This document shows, piece after piece, positions 440 to 5,301 of a DNA stretch of 5,359 nucleotides (its first letter is position 1; every line of letters begins with the position of its first letter). The DNA comes from Candidatus Poribacteria bacterium. Lineage in GTDB: Bacteria > Poribacteria > WGA-4E > WGA-3G. The position numbers and the translations under genes are program-made. Location: positions 1 to 5,359 of the forward strand of contig JAPPMR010000651.1 of assembly GCA_028818995.1 (NCBI GenBank), written 5' to 3'. The notes beneath the pieces are model-generated. The model was not told where the DNA came from. It made no database searches and was given only the letters and a program-made list of their open reading frames with translations.

Positions 440-1324
440 ATGCTATTAGATGTCACAAAGCCGAAAGCATCTCGAATTGCACTAACTGAAAGCGATACCC
501 CAGATGCATTCAAGCAACTGCTTCGAGATTACTGGACTTGGCACTATAACGACTCACTACATGATGCTGTCAAACTACTTTTAAGCATAGACTTAGGTTG
601 GGAACAAATTCCACAACTCACGACACCTCCCGTTGGAGAGGTAATTTCACCTCTGGGACATGCACTCGCTCATGCTGAAAAGGAAGTTCGGGAGGCTGCC
701 CTACAAGTGCTGGATACAACCGTGTGTATTCCAGCTGGAACTGCACTTATTGGGGAAGAATGTGAACCGCTCAAAATTGACGAATTTGAGATCGGCGTTT
801 ATCCCGTGACCAATGCACAATACCTTCGATTCTTACAAGACACTGGACATGGACCTCCAAAGGATTGGGTTGACAATCCTCAGCTAAACCATGAAATTTA
901 CGCATTAAAGGGTGACCATCCTATAGTTTGGATCAGTTGTGAAGATGCGGAAGCTTACGCTAATTACGTCGAGGGAAGATTGCCGACATTCGCAGAGTGG
1001 CAGTACGCAGCGCGCGGCACCGATGATAGAATGTTTCCGTGGGGATACGAAATAGACAAACCACGCTGTAACACGACAGAACTCGGTGCTGAAGGCACAA
1101 TACCAGTCGGCGCGTTCAAAGATGGTATTAGCCCGTTTGGATGTTATGATATGATAGGTAATGTCTGGGAATGGACCAGCACCCCTTATGACGATGAAGC
1201 TACCTTCCGTGTTGCTTGTGGCGGTGCTTGGTATTACAACCACGATTATAGTACCTGTACCAGTTTCGATTTTTTCAGTACAAACTATGCTGAATTTGTA
1301 ATAGGGTTTCGCGTTGCTCGTTGA
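440..1324 (+). CDS. FGE/SUMF1 (formylglycine-generating enzyme)-fold domain protein, catalytic cysteines absent
   Basis: A 294-residue protein. Residues about 95-294 form an FGE-sulfatase domain with the family landmarks in order: VCIPAGTALIGEE (95-107), YPVTNAQYLRF (121-131), HPIVWISCEDAEAYA (160-174), GRLPTFAEWQYAARG (179-193), FPWG (199-202), IPVGAF (221-226), GCYDMIGNVWEW (234-245), CGGAWYY (260-266) and GFRVAR at the end. True FGE oxidises a sulfatase cysteine using a cysteine pair shortly after the GGS motif; here those positions read Tyr/Ser. Sulfatase activation is therefore unlikely, and an EgtB/PvdO-like or ligand-binding role is possible. Residues 1-94 are helical, with one HEAT-like stretch (about 73-92, HALAHAEKEVREAALQVL). 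There is no signal peptide, so it is probably cytoplasmic. ATG 440 is the first ATG in the open frame, which begins after TAA 350-352. It lacks a strong Shine-Dalgarno, so the start is less certain than the family. Confidence 0.92.
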   Translation: MLLDVTKPKASRIALTESDTPDAFKQLLRDYWTWHYNDSLHDAVKLLLSIDLGWEQIPQLTTPPVGEVISPLGHALAHAEKEVREAALQVLDTTVCIPAGTALIGEECEPLKIDEFEIGVYPVTNAQYLRFLQDTGHGPPKDWVDNPQLNHEIYALKGDHPIVWISCEDAEAYANYVEGRLPTFAEWQYAARGTDDRMFPWGYEIDKPRCNTTELGAEGTIPVGAFKDGISPFGCYDMIGNVWEWTSTPYDDEATFRVACGGAWYYNHDYSTCTSFDFFSTNYAEFVIGFRVAR

Positions 1325-1447: not shown

Positions 1448-1476
1448 TTGACACTTTTTTTGCACATAGGTGTTAC
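1448..1476 (+). promoter_or_regulatory. Promoter-like site upstream of the TPR gene (sigma-54 or sigma-70 reading)
   Basis: Two readings compete. TTGACACT-N4-TTGCA (1448-1464) fits the sigma-54 -24/-12 layout, with exactly 10 bases between the GA (normally GG, 1450-1451) and GC (1462-1463); the one departure is A for the second, highly conserved G. Alternatively, TTGACA (1448-1453) is a perfect -35 with a poor -10 (TGTTAC, 1471-1476) after 17 bases. Either reading starts transcription around 1475-1483, about 35-40 bases before the TPR start codon. Confidence 0.4.
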
Positions 1477-1504
1477 AGTAATTGAGTTTCAGAAAACGGC
1501 AAAT

Positions 1505-1508
1505 GGAG
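1505..1508 (+). promoter_or_regulatory. Ribosome binding site of the TPR gene
   Basis: GGAG lies 7 bases before ATG 1516, a standard Shine-Dalgarno distance, and supports that start. Confidence 0.75.
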
Positions 1509-1515
1509 TTAACGG

Positions 1516-2124
1516 ATGAAAAATAATAAAACCGATGAAGAACAAGTCTCAATTAAAGACGAGTCCGCTAATTCTCCGCTAAAACGTGATGAATCGGTTA
1601 TTTCATCAGAAAGATTACAGAATCGGGTTATTCAGCGTGGACGCTTAGATATTCATCTTCATCAAGCCGCCGCCAAACATTTAAAACAGGGAGCGGATGC
1701 CTTAAACGCTCGCAACTATGAAAAAGCGATTGAAGAATTTCTTCAGGTAATACAACATAATCGTGAGTCCGCTGAAGCCCATTTCCATCTCGGTTTAGCT
1801 TATTTTATGTTAGAAAACTATGAAAAAGCGATTGACGCTTACAAAATGGCAATCGCGTGCGAACCGAGCGAAGTGACTGTGTATATCAATCTTGCATCCA
1901 CCTATCGTATGCTAAAACGTTATGACGAGGCAATTGAAGTTTACGAAAGTGCTATCCGGTCTATTCCGAACCATCCAGAATTACATTCGGAACTCGGGGC
2001 AGTTTACTCTCTCCGAGGCAAACGGCAAGAAGCCATTGCTGCTTTTAAAACTGCGATGCGCCTCAAATTAAATACAGCGAAAGAGTATCGTCCAACAAAA
2101 ACAAAGGGCAGCGAAGAAGAATAA
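1516..2124 (+). CDS. TPR-repeat protein (four TPRs)
   Basis: A 202-residue protein. Residues 1-50 are charged, polar and probably disordered. Four consecutive 34-residue tetratricopeptide repeats follow in perfect register at 52-85, 86-119, 120-153 and 154-187, each with the usual small/aromatic pattern (for example AHFHLGLAYFMLENYEKAIDAYKMAI in the second). A Lys/Glu-rich tail (188-202) closes the protein. TPRs form a helical superhelix that binds partner proteins; the partner cannot be told from sequence. There is no signal peptide or membrane segment, so it is presumably cytoplasmic. GGAG 7 bases upstream supports the ATG. Repeats 1 and 2 share an exact 20-base stretch (1714-1733 and 1816-1835), 102 bases apart, which fits duplication of a TPR unit. 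It is separated from the sigma-factor operon by 260 bases, so joint transcription is possible but not indicated. Confidence 0.94.
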   Translation: MKNNKTDEEQVSIKDESANSPLKRDESVISSERLQNRVIQRGRLDIHLHQAAAKHLKQGADALNARNYEKAIEEFLQVIQHNRESAEAHFHLGLAYFMLENYEKAIDAYKMAIACEPSEVTVYINLASTYRMLKRYDEAIEVYESAIRSIPNHPELHSELGAVYSLRGKRQEAIAAFKTAMRLKLNTAKEYRPTKTKGSEEE

Positions 2125-2179
2125 AACAAAATCGTTACTTAACGACTTGTGCTAGTTACATAACAGTTTTGTTGTTTTT
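2125..2179 (+). terminator. Possible AT-rich terminator after the TPR gene
   Basis: AACAAAA (2125-2131) can pair with TTTTGTT (2167-2173), enclosing a small hairpin TCGTT-ACTT-AACGA (2132-2145). G and five T follow (2174-2179). The outer stem is all weak pairs apart from one G-C, so this is only a candidate intrinsic terminator. Confidence 0.3.
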
Positions 2180-2197
2180 CACAATTGTTCATATTCT

Positions 2198-2255
2198 GTA
2201 GGAGCGATCTCCGAATCGCGACCCGTTGTAGTCGGGAATCGGAGTTCCCTCCTAC
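2198..2255. repeat. REPIN-like inverted pair of GTAG-headed REP palindromes
   Basis: The arms 2198-2222 and 2231-2255 are inverted copies matching at 21 of 25 positions, separated by 8 bases. Read inward from each outer end, both start GTAGGAG, as REP sequences of RAYT families start with GTAG or GGAG. Each arm folds on itself: GCGAT/ATCGC around loop CTCCGA (2204-2219), and GGGAA/TTCCC around loop TCGGAG (2234-2249). The four inter-arm differences all fall in these stems and are compensated within each arm, and the two loops are complementary to each other. That covariation argues for selected secondary structure, not a random palindrome. No transposase gene is present in the window. Confidence 0.65.
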
Positions 2256-2335
2256 CTTTGAAGGCGGCAAGAATCGGAAAAGTTATGGAATTCAACTCAA
2301 ACGAGACGGGCATGTGAAATATAAACATACCAAAT

Positions 2336-2363
2336 GTTAACTAACACAACGTGTTTACTTAAC
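2336..2363. promoter_or_regulatory. Dyad upstream of the ECF sigma gene, candidate operator or leader hairpin
   Basis: GTTAA (2336-2340) pairs with TTAAC (2359-2363), and inside it AACAC (2343-2347) pairs with GTGTT (2351-2355) around AAC. The dyad ends 11 bases before the AGGAG ribosome binding site. It could be an operator or an RNA hairpin influencing sigma-factor expression. A TATAAA (2320-2325) lies just upstream but has no convincing -35, and I found no clear ECF autoregulatory promoter. Confidence 0.35.
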
Positions 2364-2373
2364 CTGAATAGAT

Positions 2374-2378
2374 AGGAG
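2374..2378 (+). promoter_or_regulatory. Ribosome binding site of the ECF sigma gene
   Basis: AGGAG lies 6 bases before ATG 2385, which fixes the start with good confidence. Confidence 0.8.
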
Positions 2379-2384
2379 AACATC

Positions 2385-2984
2385 ATGATAGTTTCAGACG
2401 AAGAATTGATGCTGGAATGCAGTAAAGGAGATATGAGTGCATTTGAGTTGCTTGTCAGGAGGTATCAGGATGCGCTTGTGAACTATATCTATTATACCAT
2501 CAACGATTATCATCGTGCCGAAGATCTCGCGCAGGAGACGTTTCTCCGTGTTTTCAAGAACGCGAGTCGTTATGAGCCGAAAGCATCCTTTAAAAGTTGG
2601 CTTTATACGATTGCTACCAATTTGTCTAAAAACGAAATCCGAAATCGGGCTCGGCGAAATACATACTTTCTGGAAGATATGGTTGAAGAAAACGAGGATG
2701 TGTACCACTCTGAATTTATGATAGATACCCGTTATCAACCGGATATCCTTTATGAAAAAAAAGAACGTCAACAACTCATCAAGAAAACATTAAAGCAGCT
2801 CCCTGAAAATCAACGTTTAGCATTAACACTGGTAACATATCAGGAACTTAGTTATGAAGAAATTTCTGATATTCTAAATTGTTCAACAGGAGCAGTAAAA
2901 TCTTTAATTCACCGTGCACGTCAAAACATGAAAAAACTACTTATCAAGGCTGGAATTGGAGGTGGAGTCAATGAAAAAATATAA
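2385..2984 (+). CDS. ECF-family RNA polymerase sigma factor
   Basis: A 199-residue protein of normal ECF length with only the two essential domains. Sigma region 2 covers about 16-91: the core-polymerase-binding helix with AEDLAQETFLRVF (45-57), then FKSWLYTIATNLSKNEIRNRARR (69-91), which contacts the -10 element. An acidic linker (96-125) precedes sigma region 4 (about 128-187), with QLPENQRLALTL (138-149) and the -35-binding helix-turn-helix LSYEEISDILNCSTGAVKSL (155-174), followed by HRARQNMKKLL. ECF factors are alternative sigmas, usually held inactive by a cognate anti-sigma factor. Here that gene starts inside the sigma 3' end, giving a 14-base overlap and probable translational coupling. 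The subgroup and regulon cannot be assigned from this window alone. Confidence 0.97.
   Translation: MIVSDEELMLECSKGDMSAFELLVRRYQDALVNYIYYTINDYHRAEDLAQETFLRVFKNASRYEPKASFKSWLYTIATNLSKNEIRNRARRNTYFLEDMVEENEDVYHSEFMIDTRYQPDILYEKKERQQLIKKTLKQLPENQRLALTLVTYQELSYEEISDILNCSTGAVKSLIHRARQNMKKLLIKAGIGGGVNEKI
2958..2962 (+). promoter_or_regulatory. Ribosome binding site that decides the anti-sigma start
   Basis: GGAGG lies 8 bases before ATG 2971, inside the sigma gene. An in-frame TTG at 2956 would add five residues, but it overlaps the Shine-Dalgarno itself and has no site of its own. The ATG is therefore the better start. Confidence 0.75.
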
Positions 2985-3498
2985 AATAAGCGAATGTAAA
3001 AACGTTCAAACACAACTTTCAGCCTATTTTGACCATGAAATGCCCACGTGGAAACGACACCTGATTCGGTGGCATCTAAAGCAGTGTCCGGATTGCAGTG
3101 CGCGAGTCAAGGCGATAGAACAGACGCATAAACTTCTTCACCTTGCAGAACCGGTTGAGGCTTCCGATACTTTTCTGTCAACTGTAATGTCCCGTGCAAC
3201 TACGTTGAAAACGACCCAAAAGGCACAGCAGTCGATCTTCAATCGCTTCGGTTCGTTTGTTGAAGGGTTGCAAATGCGGATGCGAGGCAACATTCGCGCT
3301 TATAACCTTGTTTATATGTTTGGGTTAATATTTGCTGTATTTACAATGATAGGTGTAACGCTCTATTCACCTCGTATTGATAGTCTTAACCCGTTCACTC
3401 AATTAAGTTCTAAATCATCAGAGGTTCAACAAGAAAGGCTTATTTCGTTTGAAGTAATTCCACAGCAGGAACCTAAACGTTCCCTTAAAATTCGTTGA
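2971..3498 (+). CDS. Membrane-anchored zinc-binding (ZAS-type) anti-sigma factor
   Basis: A 175-residue protein. The N-terminus is a zinc-finger anti-sigma domain: Cys9, then His35-x3-Cys39-x2-Cys42 in HLKQCPDC. The 26-residue spacing from Cys9 to His35 equals that of the zinc ligands Cys11 and His37 in RsrA. A charged linker (45-110) leads to one hydrophobic transmembrane helix (about 111-132, YNLVYMFGLIFAVFTMIGVT), then about 43 residues probably outside the cytoplasm. Such proteins bind their ECF sigma through the cytoplasmic ZAS domain and release it after a redox signal or after proteolysis triggered from outside. The gene overlaps the sigma gene by 14 bases and is 12 bases from the next gene. 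Start chosen by the Shine-Dalgarno at 2958-2962. Family assignment is firm; the signal is unknown. Confidence 0.93.
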   Translation: MKKYKISECKNVQTQLSAYFDHEMPTWKRHLIRWHLKQCPDCSARVKAIEQTHKLLHLAEPVEASDTFLSTVMSRATTLKTTQKAQQSIFNRFGSFVEGLQMRMRGNIRAYNLVYMFGLIFAVFTMIGVTLYSPRIDSLNPFTQLSSKSSEVQQERLISFEVIPQQEPKRSLKIR

Positions 3499-3499
3499 T

Positions 3500-3503
3500 G
3501 AGG
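3500..3503 (+). promoter_or_regulatory. Ribosome binding site of the TonB-like/vWA gene
   Basis: GAGG lies 7 bases before ATG 3511, starting directly after the anti-sigma stop codon, which supports translation as part of the same message. Confidence 0.7.
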
Positions 3504-3510
3504 TTCAACA

Positions 3511-5301
3511 ATGAAAAGTTTAAACCGCCACACCGTAAGGTCTATAACGCGTAAAGCACTGCTTATTTCAACGATATTCCATGTATTCTTTCTGGTCACG
3601 CTGTTTTATTTTTCTATTCGCAATCAGCCTATTTTACCCAATCAAGACAAGATTGCTGTAACACTTTCAACAGCACCAAAACCGCTGCCAGCAAAGATTC
3701 CTAAAAAAGCACCAATACTTCAACAACATACAAAAACCGTGTATAAAACAGCAAAACCACTTGCAGAAGTTGAAGCGATTAAACCTCACATTGCGTTTCA
3801 ACCGCGTCTTACGCCTCCGTCGCCCATTGTTTCAGAACAACCACGGCTCGAACAGACAAATACAGCACCTGACGTGAAAGTGAATGTCAGCACCGCGCTC
3901 AACGAACTGCGTCAAGTTGAAGATGGGCTATCAAAGACAGAGGCAGCAGAACCAACAATAGGAAGTTCTTTCGGTTCAAAACGCTCCGGTATGCTGGGCG
4001 CACAACGCACACCTACCCGTACTACGCTTGATATTGCTGAAACAGTAGATGACGATGACGATATTCCAAATATAGCAGATCTCCAAGAAAACAAACCCTC
4101 TTTACCTTATATTCCATTTGGTTCTGTTATCAAAAATCTTGCACGTGAGATCGTGGAAACAAGTGATGGCGGGCCAATTGATGTCGTTTTTGTCATTGAT
4201 GCCAGCAGTAGTATGGGTGATAATATAAAAGCAGTTGTTGAACACTTGGCAGAAATGGTTGATGTCTATAAAGCTTCAGATATTGATTACGCACTCGGTT
4301 TAACCCATTTCTCTGCACGAGCAAAGGGAAATTCACGGAAACAAGAAAACTATATAAAAGTTTTTCAATTAACTCAAAAATTTTCTGCATACAAACAGAG
4401 TCTAAATACGATTGTCCCTCGCGGCGATGAGAAAGCGTTGGACGCTATCGCGCAAACAGTCGACGAAATGCAATTCCGTGCCACATCCAAAAAACATCTT
4501 ATTCTCGTTACTGATGAACCGTTCACCAGTCTTGAAGGTTTAACAGTCCAAGACTCAATTGCCCTATGTCGCGAGTTTGGCATTTATGTTAATATCCTTG
4601 GTCTGCCAAACAAACAACACCTATTACTTGCATTTGAAACTGATGGAAAATGGCACGCAATTCCCGAGGATCCGAAGAGGCAACAAGCAGTGCAAAGCAA
4701 TAGAAGTCTAACACTAAAGCAAAGAACCCAATTGCTGAGAACAACACACTGGCAAAAGGCACAGAAGATCAAGAAAACATTGCTCCAAAAATATGGGAAT
4801 ACATCTGTAGACATCGTCTTGTTCATTGATGCAAGTAAGAGCATGGAAGATAAACTCCCACAATTTTTACAACAACTGGATATTTGGGTTCGGGATTGGG
4901 ATAACGCGCTTATTGACTATCAGATTGGTGTCGTTAGGTTTCGGACACGTGCTTCCGTTGACATAGTGAATGTATTCAATCCACCACAATCTCTTGATCA
5001 GATCCACAAAATTGTCGAACTGCCATGTCAAGAAGATGAAAACCTGCTGCACGCTATTACTGAAGGTTTACGCCGTATTAAGCTCCGTCCGGATGCACAA
5101 ACACATCTCATTCTTGTTACAGATGAACCTGCAAGTAAAAACTCACCTTCAGCAGGTGTCATCCAGTTTTTAGAGGAAAAACAGGCTGTTGTAAGTGTTA
5201 TTGGAACTTTCGATAATTTTCAAGAAGAGGTAACAATTAAAACGGGTGGTGTGTGGGTGCCGATTCCAGAGGGACACACAACTAATCACAGGCACTGGTA
5301 A
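3511..5301 (+). CDS. TonB-like N-terminal anchor fused to two von Willebrand factor A domains
   Basis: A 596-residue protein. A basic N-terminus and one membrane helix (about 16-36) contain Ser20-x3-His24. This is the SxxxH arrangement of TonB, where the His is needed for coupling to ExbB/ExbD, and the following IAVTLSTAP plus Pro/Lys-rich stretch (49-112) also resembles TonB. A polar linker with an Asp run (180-184) leads to vWA domain 1 (about 222-388) with MIDAS motif DASSS (230-234), and vWA domain 2 (about 432-588) with DASKS (440-444). Both carry HLILVTDEP (329-337, 532-540) and end in a related motif (KWHAIPED, VWVPIPEG), showing tandem duplication. vWA domains bind proteins through a metal ion, presumably in the periplasm here. 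There is no TonB C-terminal domain, so it is not an ordinary TonB. It is third in the sigma/anti-sigma operon, suggesting a sensor, anti-sigma partner or output protein. Confidence 0.92.
   Translation: MKSLNRHTVRSITRKALLISTIFHVFFLVTLFYFSIRNQPILPNQDKIAVTLSTAPKPLPAKIPKKAPILQQHTKTVYKTAKPLAEVEAIKPHIAFQPRLTPPSPIVSEQPRLEQTNTAPDVKVNVSTALNELRQVEDGLSKTEAAEPTIGSSFGSKRSGMLGAQRTPTRTTLDIAETVDDDDDIPNIADLQENKPSLPYIPFGSVIKNLAREIVETSDGGPIDVVFVIDASSSMGDNIKAVVEHLAEMVDVYKASDIDYALGLTHFSARAKGNSRKQENYIKVFQLTQKFSAYKQSLNTIVPRGDEKALDAIAQTVDEMQFRATSKKHLILVTDEPFTSLEGLTVQDSIALCREFGIYVNILGLPNKQHLLLAFETDGKWHAIPEDPKRQQAVQSNRSLTLKQRTQLLRTTHWQKAQKIKKTLLQKYGNTSVDIVLFIDASKSMEDKLPQFLQQLDIWVRDWDNALIDYQIGVVRFRTRASVDIVNVFNPPQSLDQIHKIVELPCQEDENLLHAITEGLRRIKLRPDAQTHLILVTDEPASKNSPSAGVIQFLEEKQAVVSVIGTFDNFQEEVTIKTGGVWVPIPEGHTTNHRHW
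4174..4674 (+). other. vWA domain 1 of the TonB-like/vWA protein
   Basis: Residues about 222-388. The strand-then-MIDAS pattern is IDVVFVIDASSSMGDN, with Asp230, Ser232 and Ser234 as metal ligands. A later Asp335 in LVTDEP is the likely fourth-motif residue. The usual MIDAS Thr is not obvious; the loop reads VPRGDEKALDAI (302-313). Confidence 0.85.
4804..5274 (+). other. vWA domain 2 of the TonB-like/vWA protein
   Basis: Residues about 432-588. The MIDAS is VDIVLFIDASKSMEDK, with Asp440, Ser442 and Ser444, and Asp538 sits in the same LVTDEP motif. The loop corresponding to the MIDAS Thr reads LPCQEDENLLHAI (504-516). It is shorter than domain 1 and diverged outside the motifs, so the duplication is old. 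Confidence 0.85.

Follow-up and report, generated by a model that had tools for sequence, protein, structure and literature searches.

Extracytoplasmic function (ECF) sigma factors commonly recognize promoters with AAC in the −35 element and commonly regulate their own transcription, and RsiW is controlled by proteolysis. Control of an exbB-exbD operon by an ECF sigma factor is known for the FecI-type systems VreI (PMC2729926) and HemI (PMC12772443), and it is therefore not new in itself. ExbD grips the D-box of TonB (PMC10907165, PMC10771500), and a set of force transducers with von Willebrand factor A (vWA) domains has been described in a paper that never names Poribacteria (0 occurrences; Mol Biol Evol 2025, PMC12204202). 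Here we analyzed a 5,359-nt stretch of DNA from a Candidatus Poribacteria bacterium (contig JAPPMR010000651.1; hereafter the window), in which an ECF sigma factor gene, a ZAS anti-sigma factor gene, and a gene for a double-vWA protein follow one another. Our preferred reading, to which we give slightly less than even odds, is that an ECF sigma system for a Ton-type envelope motor of Poribacteria has its control locus here.

The product of the ECF gene (2385..2984, + strand) contains sigma-70 regions 2 and 4 only (E 4e-19 and 5e-16), scores above the cut-off of the sigma70-ECF superfamily model, and has 6in7_B (E 2.5e-30) and 8z6g_B (E 2.7e-30) as its nearest solved chains. Its reading frame shares a 14-nt overlap with that of the anti-sigma gene (2971..3498, + strand), which encodes a zf-HC2 domain (E 2e-9) with the zinc motif H35xxxC39xxC42, one transmembrane helix seen by hydropathy, and a periplasmic C-terminal tail. 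The HxxxCxxC domain, the helix, and the location beside an ECF sigma gene identify this protein as a ZAS factor, and RsiW (5wuq_C) is the solved chain closest to its profile (E 8e-7). The gene for the SHLS-anchored double-vWA protein (3511..5301, + strand; 596 aa) starts 12 bases (3499-3510) after the anti-sigma stop, and purine-rich ribosome-binding sites can be read in front of the ECF, anti-sigma, and vWA starts (AGGAG, GGAGGTGGAG, and GAGG). A first-pass annotation of this DNA had proposed a tight three-gene operon, with overlapping or 12-base-spaced genes and a ribosome-binding site for each; the coordinates of the open reading frames (ORFs) confirm the spacing exactly and the sites are all present. 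The trio itself stands, but not its extent as a unit, because a conserved TPR gene (1516..2124, + strand; Pfam TPR, without an obvious signal peptide by eye) and, as the conserved first gene of the block, an FGE-sulfatase-domain gene (440..1324, + strand; Pfam PF03781, E 1e-39) lie upstream. Domain searches matched the anti-sigma protein to no FecR family and revealed no TonB-dependent receptor gene in the window, in keeping with the same annotation's remark that this is not the FecI/FecR/receptor layout.

A search of the species genomes that used only the vWA family recovered 51 loci (L numbers; genomes are given G numbers), 46 of which hold all three genes in order, with anti-sigma-to-vWA gaps of −8 to 157 nt. 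Since these loci were found by the vWA family only, the order of the trio is not due to chance. L051 has the sigma/anti-sigma pair, and its contig breaks off within the vWA gene; L005 and L042 start at or near contig starts, and in L047 and L049 a vWA paralogue is located behind a larger TPR gene instead. A full-length vWA gene (at least 700 bits) is present in 56 of 84 Poribacteria genomes, and none of these 56 lacks the anti-sigma gene, which immediately precedes the vWA gene in the same orientation in 54 and lies on a separate contig in the other 2. Two more genomes can be added: G052, whose vWA gene (301 bits) is truncated where the contig stops, and G017, whose vWA gene (460 bits) qualifies as trio-type by its position next to a sigma/anti-sigma pair. 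Presence is then 58/58 and adjacency 56/58. Nine further genomes have an anti-sigma match (154-175 bits) and no trio-type vWA gene, and in eight the anti-sigma search gave nothing at E 1e-6. The FGE gene lies upstream in the listed loci save L045, L005, L042, L047, and L049. Synteny alone was distrusted, because the downstream PurN-like and TIM-barrel-like genes (named by eye) are also syntenic. Relevant here are L045, whose trio is the furthest diverged of the complete ones (46% identity) and stands bare on a 10-kb contig without FGE, TPR, or PurN-like gene, and the genomes that have the pair without the vWA gene. The sigma/anti-sigma/vWA trio is thus a conserved unit, which answers in the affirmative the comparison across genomes suggested in the first-pass annotation.

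A promoter-like element, GACACTT-N12-GGTGTTA (1450..1475, + strand), precedes the TPR gene, its ACTT lying 63 nt ahead of the start codon. The core ACTT-N12-GGTGTT occurs 56-76 nt before the called TPR start in the window and in 16/16 loci of clade 1, that is, the loci closest to the window (L001-L004, L006-L016, and L020; clade 2 comprises L017-L051 minus L020, L045, and paralogues, and both clades are labels given by identity and neighbors, not taken from a tree). The corresponding regular expression (N11-13) matched 27 of 20,000 random 100-nt stretches. The element also lies 5′ of the ECF gene in L045/L056, L120, L121, and L130; L126, which has it on the opposite strand only, was left out of the count. 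A regular expression for GGAAC-type promoters revealed no conserved site near the operon, and sigma-70-like matches in the window did not exceed those in shuffled sequences (9 versus 11.4).

The same block was also found 5′ of exbB. Genome-wide, CGWAACTTY-N11-RGTGTT yielded 69 matches in 56 of 81 genomes, and the reversed pattern 4. Fifty-four of the 69 map 54-315 nt before exbB, 3 map 57 nt before a stand-alone exbD, and 12 are elsewhere or unassigned; the exbB site of G027, an estimated ~0.5 kb upstream and beyond the 420-nt limit, was classed as 'other'. A site at exbB or exbD is present in 49/64 genomes with a strong anti-sigma match, 5/10 with a weak one, and 0/7 with none, i.e., 54/74 against 0/7 (Fisher p 2.6e-4, in a test that ignores kinship). 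We then inspected exbB in 26 genomes, namely the 8 without the anti-sigma gene and 18 others without a strict exbB site. Among the latter, 8 have one-step variants and 7 have copies with 2-3 mismatches, G036 and G079 offer too little upstream sequence, and G007 has none. Where the anti-sigma gene is missing, the best copy has 4-6 mismatches in 6/8 genomes and the other 2 gave no relaxed match. Chance copies arise in 0.4%, 1.5%, and 9.8% of random 450-nt stretches at up to 2, 3, and 4 mismatches, respectively. In G002 (L045/L056), G022, G026, and G027, the ECF-upstream and exbB-upstream elements both have the CGAAACTT form. Among genomes that have the anti-sigma gene, the exbB element is thus widespread. 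Both G037 and G080 (L258 and L285) also have the element ~20 nt ahead of an ORF that by eye looks PurQ-like, and a nearly identical one lies at a contig end in L261 (G041).

Across a non-redundant set of 61 members, the periplasmic part of the anti-sigma factor measures ~33-73 residues (44 for L001, the window's close relative), and in the window it carries the strand I158-S-F-E-V-I-P164 (3442..3462, + strand), followed by EPKR. Across the tail alignment, L-I-S-F-E-V-I and P-K-R are kept and the spacer varies, with mean column entropies of 1.27 for the strand, 1.60 for residues 1-60 including the zinc finger, and 2.40 for the spacer; E161 is 89% conserved. The hydrophobic pattern of the TonB D-box, as defined in PMC10907165, is present in 45/61 tails (500 shuffles: mean 7.4, maximum 16), and the 16 tails that miss it fail, as we read them, at one position in 8 cases, at two in 6, and at more in 2 (L124 and P0141). 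Divergent members spell the strand in other letters, such as VEFEIVS (L120), IQVDLVS (L128), and ISVTVIS (L127). Among other ZAS proteins with a transmembrane helix in seven genomes, the pattern occurred in 4/22 distinct tails at scattered positions, or in 5/22 over the full tail length. In most tails the strand lies ~20-30 residues from the inner membrane, and a proline follows it within 8 residues in 58/59. Two divergent anti-sigma members (L128 7624-8160 and L129 7772-8311) have lost the HxxxCxxC motif and kept the tail strand. Other ZAS families have recurring tails of their own, LDFYFG.HTE and Y.LK.VSY.....GGL (L165-L168, L179, L181; L189-L191), which are perhaps further docking motifs.

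The vWA protein is anchored by a membrane segment (3556..3621, + strand; alignment and AlphaFold2) with S20, H24, L31, and S35, the SHLS residues of TonB/TolA. An alignment of 62 sequences shows H24 without exception and S20 in at least 90%; L31 and S35 fall in neither of these two conservation classes. AlphaFold2 predicts a helix at 6-37, disorder from 39 to 197 (predicted local distance difference test, pLDDT, <50), and two confident vWA domains, which match PF00092 (E 1e-17) and PF13519 (E 9e-11) and both keep DxSxS (domain 1, 4165..4671, D230xS232xS234; domain 2, 4801..5268, D440xS442xS444; + strand). A possible, weak motor-box strand, IAVTLST (3652..3672, + strand), was seen by eye behind the anchor, and a position-specific scoring matrix derived from the anti-sigma tails placed its best site in the vWA proteins juxtamembrane in 19/58, likewise a weak signal. 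The SHLS anchor, the disordered linker, and the double vWA fold fit the architecture of the published vWA force transducers. In the PVC group such transducers often have TPR and motor genes as neighbors; here a TPR gene is nearby, and the motor genes, which are not adjacent, share the promoter-like element. No paralogue of 700-760 aa was noticed beside ExbB/ExbD among the 120-320-aa neighbors read by eye. The vWA gene also occurs in tandem copies, some of them broken or truncated (L001 10001-16655; also L002, L003, L012, L014, L019, and L043). TPR-vWA paralogue pairs without sigma and anti-sigma genes are located at L047 8173-11119, L049 6830-9796, and L041 499-3505 (minus strand), those of L047 and L049 with the strands AIQVDLIS/AIQVDIIS behind the anchor.

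ExbD was found in 15/15 genomes examined, as adjacent pairs, and ExbB in 10/10, with an N-terminal domain that is carboxypeptidase-regulatory-like in L194. In the three regions whose ORFs were read (L194, L195, and L197), no TonB gene lies beside the ExbB-ExbD-ExbD operon; L199 is a second motor with a single ExbD and, by eye, an adjoining TonB-like gene. TonB_C matches (2 to 5 per genome, fragments included) and receptor plugs (5-16) are present in 10/10 genomes. Several transducers thus seem to depend on a single main motor, and under such conditions gauging free ExbD would make sense. Just 5′ of exbB, L194 encodes an 1124-aa protein without a Pfam match at E 0.001 (1484-4858), and ORFs near this size occupy the same place in several other genomes.

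In the mechanism that we propose, the sigma factor would read A-ACTT-N12-GGTGTT before the TPR-sigma-anti-sigma-vWA operon (in some lineages) and before the distant ExbB-ExbD-ExbD operon, and the ZAS factor would hold it at the membrane as long as the D-box-like strand of its short tail is captured by a free ExbD dimer. Once transducers (TonBs or the SHLS-anchored vWA protein) occupy the grooves of ExbD, or when ExbD is short, the tail would lose its partner and the sigma factor would be freed, so that more motor and more vWA transducer would be made. Gene order, co-occurrence, tail conservation, and the element before both operons are the parts of this scheme legible in the genomes; from them we infer recognition of the element by this sigma factor, the hold of ExbD on the tail, release of the sigma factor once contact with ExbD is lost, and the sign of the feedback. 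The most specific component, an anti-sigma factor that acts as a gauge of the Ton motor because its own D-box contends for the ExbD groove against TonB and the vWA transducer, is put forward tentatively, and we hold it to be less probable than not.

Several observations weigh against this proposal. Clade 2 shows no element before the sigma operon in the FGE, TPR, and ECF upstreams examined, and many of its listed loci have a sigma70-like promoter 5′ of the FGE gene instead; in divergent lineages the element appears in only 4/15 ECF upstreams (random 300-nt stretches, 1.2%). The window copy reads CACTT rather than AACTT, the form found before exbB, and is missed by a position weight matrix built from the exbB sites, which flagged 9 close loci before the TPR gene and L045 before the ECF gene and missed 7 close loci as well as the window. 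With the element of the sigma operon itself confined to some lineages, autoregulation is supported for those only, because clade 2 and most divergent ECF upstreams lack it. Another ECF sigma factor of these genomes could also read the exbB element, and the kinship disregarded by the Fisher test tempers its association with the anti-sigma gene. As for the tail, a proline precedes the strand in only 4/59 members, so the prolines that flank a D-box on both sides are matched here on one side only, and the E. coli D-box core scored only at p 0.009 with the tail-derived matrix. Local alignment of 12 tails with 9 TonBs was not clearly above shuffles (mean 23.5 versus 22.8 ± 0.38, maximum 23.8), one pair of the 108 (window versus L204) scoring 36, and for this reason we call the strand only D-box-like.

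The main rival is plain proteolytic control. The locus would then be an ordinary RsiW-type system in which the tail strand is the recognition site of a site-1 protease and envelope stress releases the sigma factor by regulated proteolysis, the vWA protein and ExbBD being mere regulon products and ExbD having no physical contact with the anti-sigma factor. RsiW is indeed the nearest solved relative and the regulon evidence fits this explanation equally well; in our judgement, however, a D-box pattern that divergent members keep in other letters suits a backbone-pairing partner better than a cleavage site, and we regard proteolysis alone as a serious but doubtful account of the locus. The first-pass annotation had instead cast the vWA protein as sensor or relay of the signal, or as its main output. 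In a sensor model of this kind, the periplasmic vWA domains would detect a ligand or strain and bind the tail, for instance through its nearly invariant Glu161 at the metal of a metal ion-dependent adhesion site (MIDAS). The tight operon, the co-occurrence of the genes, the DxSxS motif in both domains, and the conservation of E161 would all suit such a role, yet the strand is mostly kept where no vWA gene is adjacent: anti-sigma factors were read from 7 of the 9 genomes without a trio-type vWA gene (L120-L124, L130, and L131), and 6 have a clear tail strand, that of L124 being degenerate. Because these 9 genomes carry other, more distant double-vWA proteins elsewhere, action in trans retains some room. 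The tail/vWA complex, which that annotation had wished to see predicted, was approached by folding a read-through anti-sigma/vWA chain, where the tail stayed disordered (pLDDT 26-28), a weak test given the awkward topology, since the linker ties the tail to the cytoplasmic end of the vWA protein. Overall, we consider the sensor model unlikely, and to us the vWA protein has more the look of a client of the motor that is made under the same control. Recognition of the tail by the C-terminal domains of the Poribacterial TonBs is a still more distant prospect, and we give it very little credence. TonB does recruit strands, as is established (PMC10907165), and TonB_C domains coexist with plugs of TonB-dependent receptors in 10/10 genomes examined; but the short distance of most strands from the membrane is nearer to the position of ExbD, and the element precedes motor genes, 0/69 sites being assigned to a TonB gene (12 of them not fully identified).

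Rfam and tRNA searches of the window gave no match. Those relatives of the vWA protein that bear a name are Poribacterial. An inverted repeat at 153-280 (arms 153-177/256-280, 88% complementary) lies 5′ of the FGE gene, also in L001. The window and L001 (isolate RHO2_bin_17), the genome of which (G001) served as a stand-in for the window's own, are 97.4% identical over 2954 bases and 95.5% over 2141 bases. In the gap between the TPR and ECF genes, ~213 bp (2142-2354) are missing from L001, otherwise 97% identical there. This insert resembles a miniature inverted-repeat transposable element (MITE), because TTACTTAAC repeats flank it and its internal palindrome of ~60 nt has copies at other loci.

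Should the ExbD-gauge proposal be correct, ExbBD output would be matched to transducer load or to proton-motive force, and the locus would represent a motor-homeostasis sigma system in which a regulated product, ExbD, is the ligand of the anti-sigma factor. How Ton/Tol-type motors adjust to demand and what vWA force transducers do are open questions on which a sigma/anti-sigma pair tied to the motor by a promoter element and to the vWA protein by an operon provides a handle, with ExbD as a ligand open to testing, a regulon prediction, and phylum-wide natural variants that include the pair without an adjacent vWA gene. In the open-licence literature of PubMed Central, bioRxiv excepted, we found no report that connects an ECF/anti-sigma pair with vWA proteins, Poribacteria, or ExbD and the D-box. 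What appears to be new is the D-box-like tail on a ZAS anti-sigma factor, together with the linked vWA transducer and the element common to both operons.

Compared with the systems described so far, the Poribacterial locus shares with SigW/RsiW and AlgU-like systems an ECF sigma factor of this general type and a single-pass ZAS anti-sigma factor, and differs in that the periplasmic tail is very short and bears a D-box-like strand, and in having a linked vWA transducer. VreI (PMC2729926) and HemI (PMC12772443) resemble the control proposed here in placing an exbB-exbD operon under an ECF sigma factor; they work with FecR-like regulators and a receptor or receptor-like partner, whereas the Poribacterial locus has a ZAS factor and a vWA protein, with no receptor gene in the operon. 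With the vWA force transducers (PMC12204202) the locus has in common the SHLS-type transmembrane anchor, the disordered linker, the C-terminal double vWA fold, the TPR gene nearby, and a motor with two different TolR/ExbD proteins; there the vWA gene follows the motor genes, but here it follows the sigma/anti-sigma pair and the motor is encoded elsewhere in the genome. Finally, set against the TonB D-box (PMC10907165, PMC10771500), the strand of this locus lies at the C-terminal end of an anti-sigma protein that has no SHLS helix, shows no conserved proline ahead of it, and is a putative ligand of ExbD.

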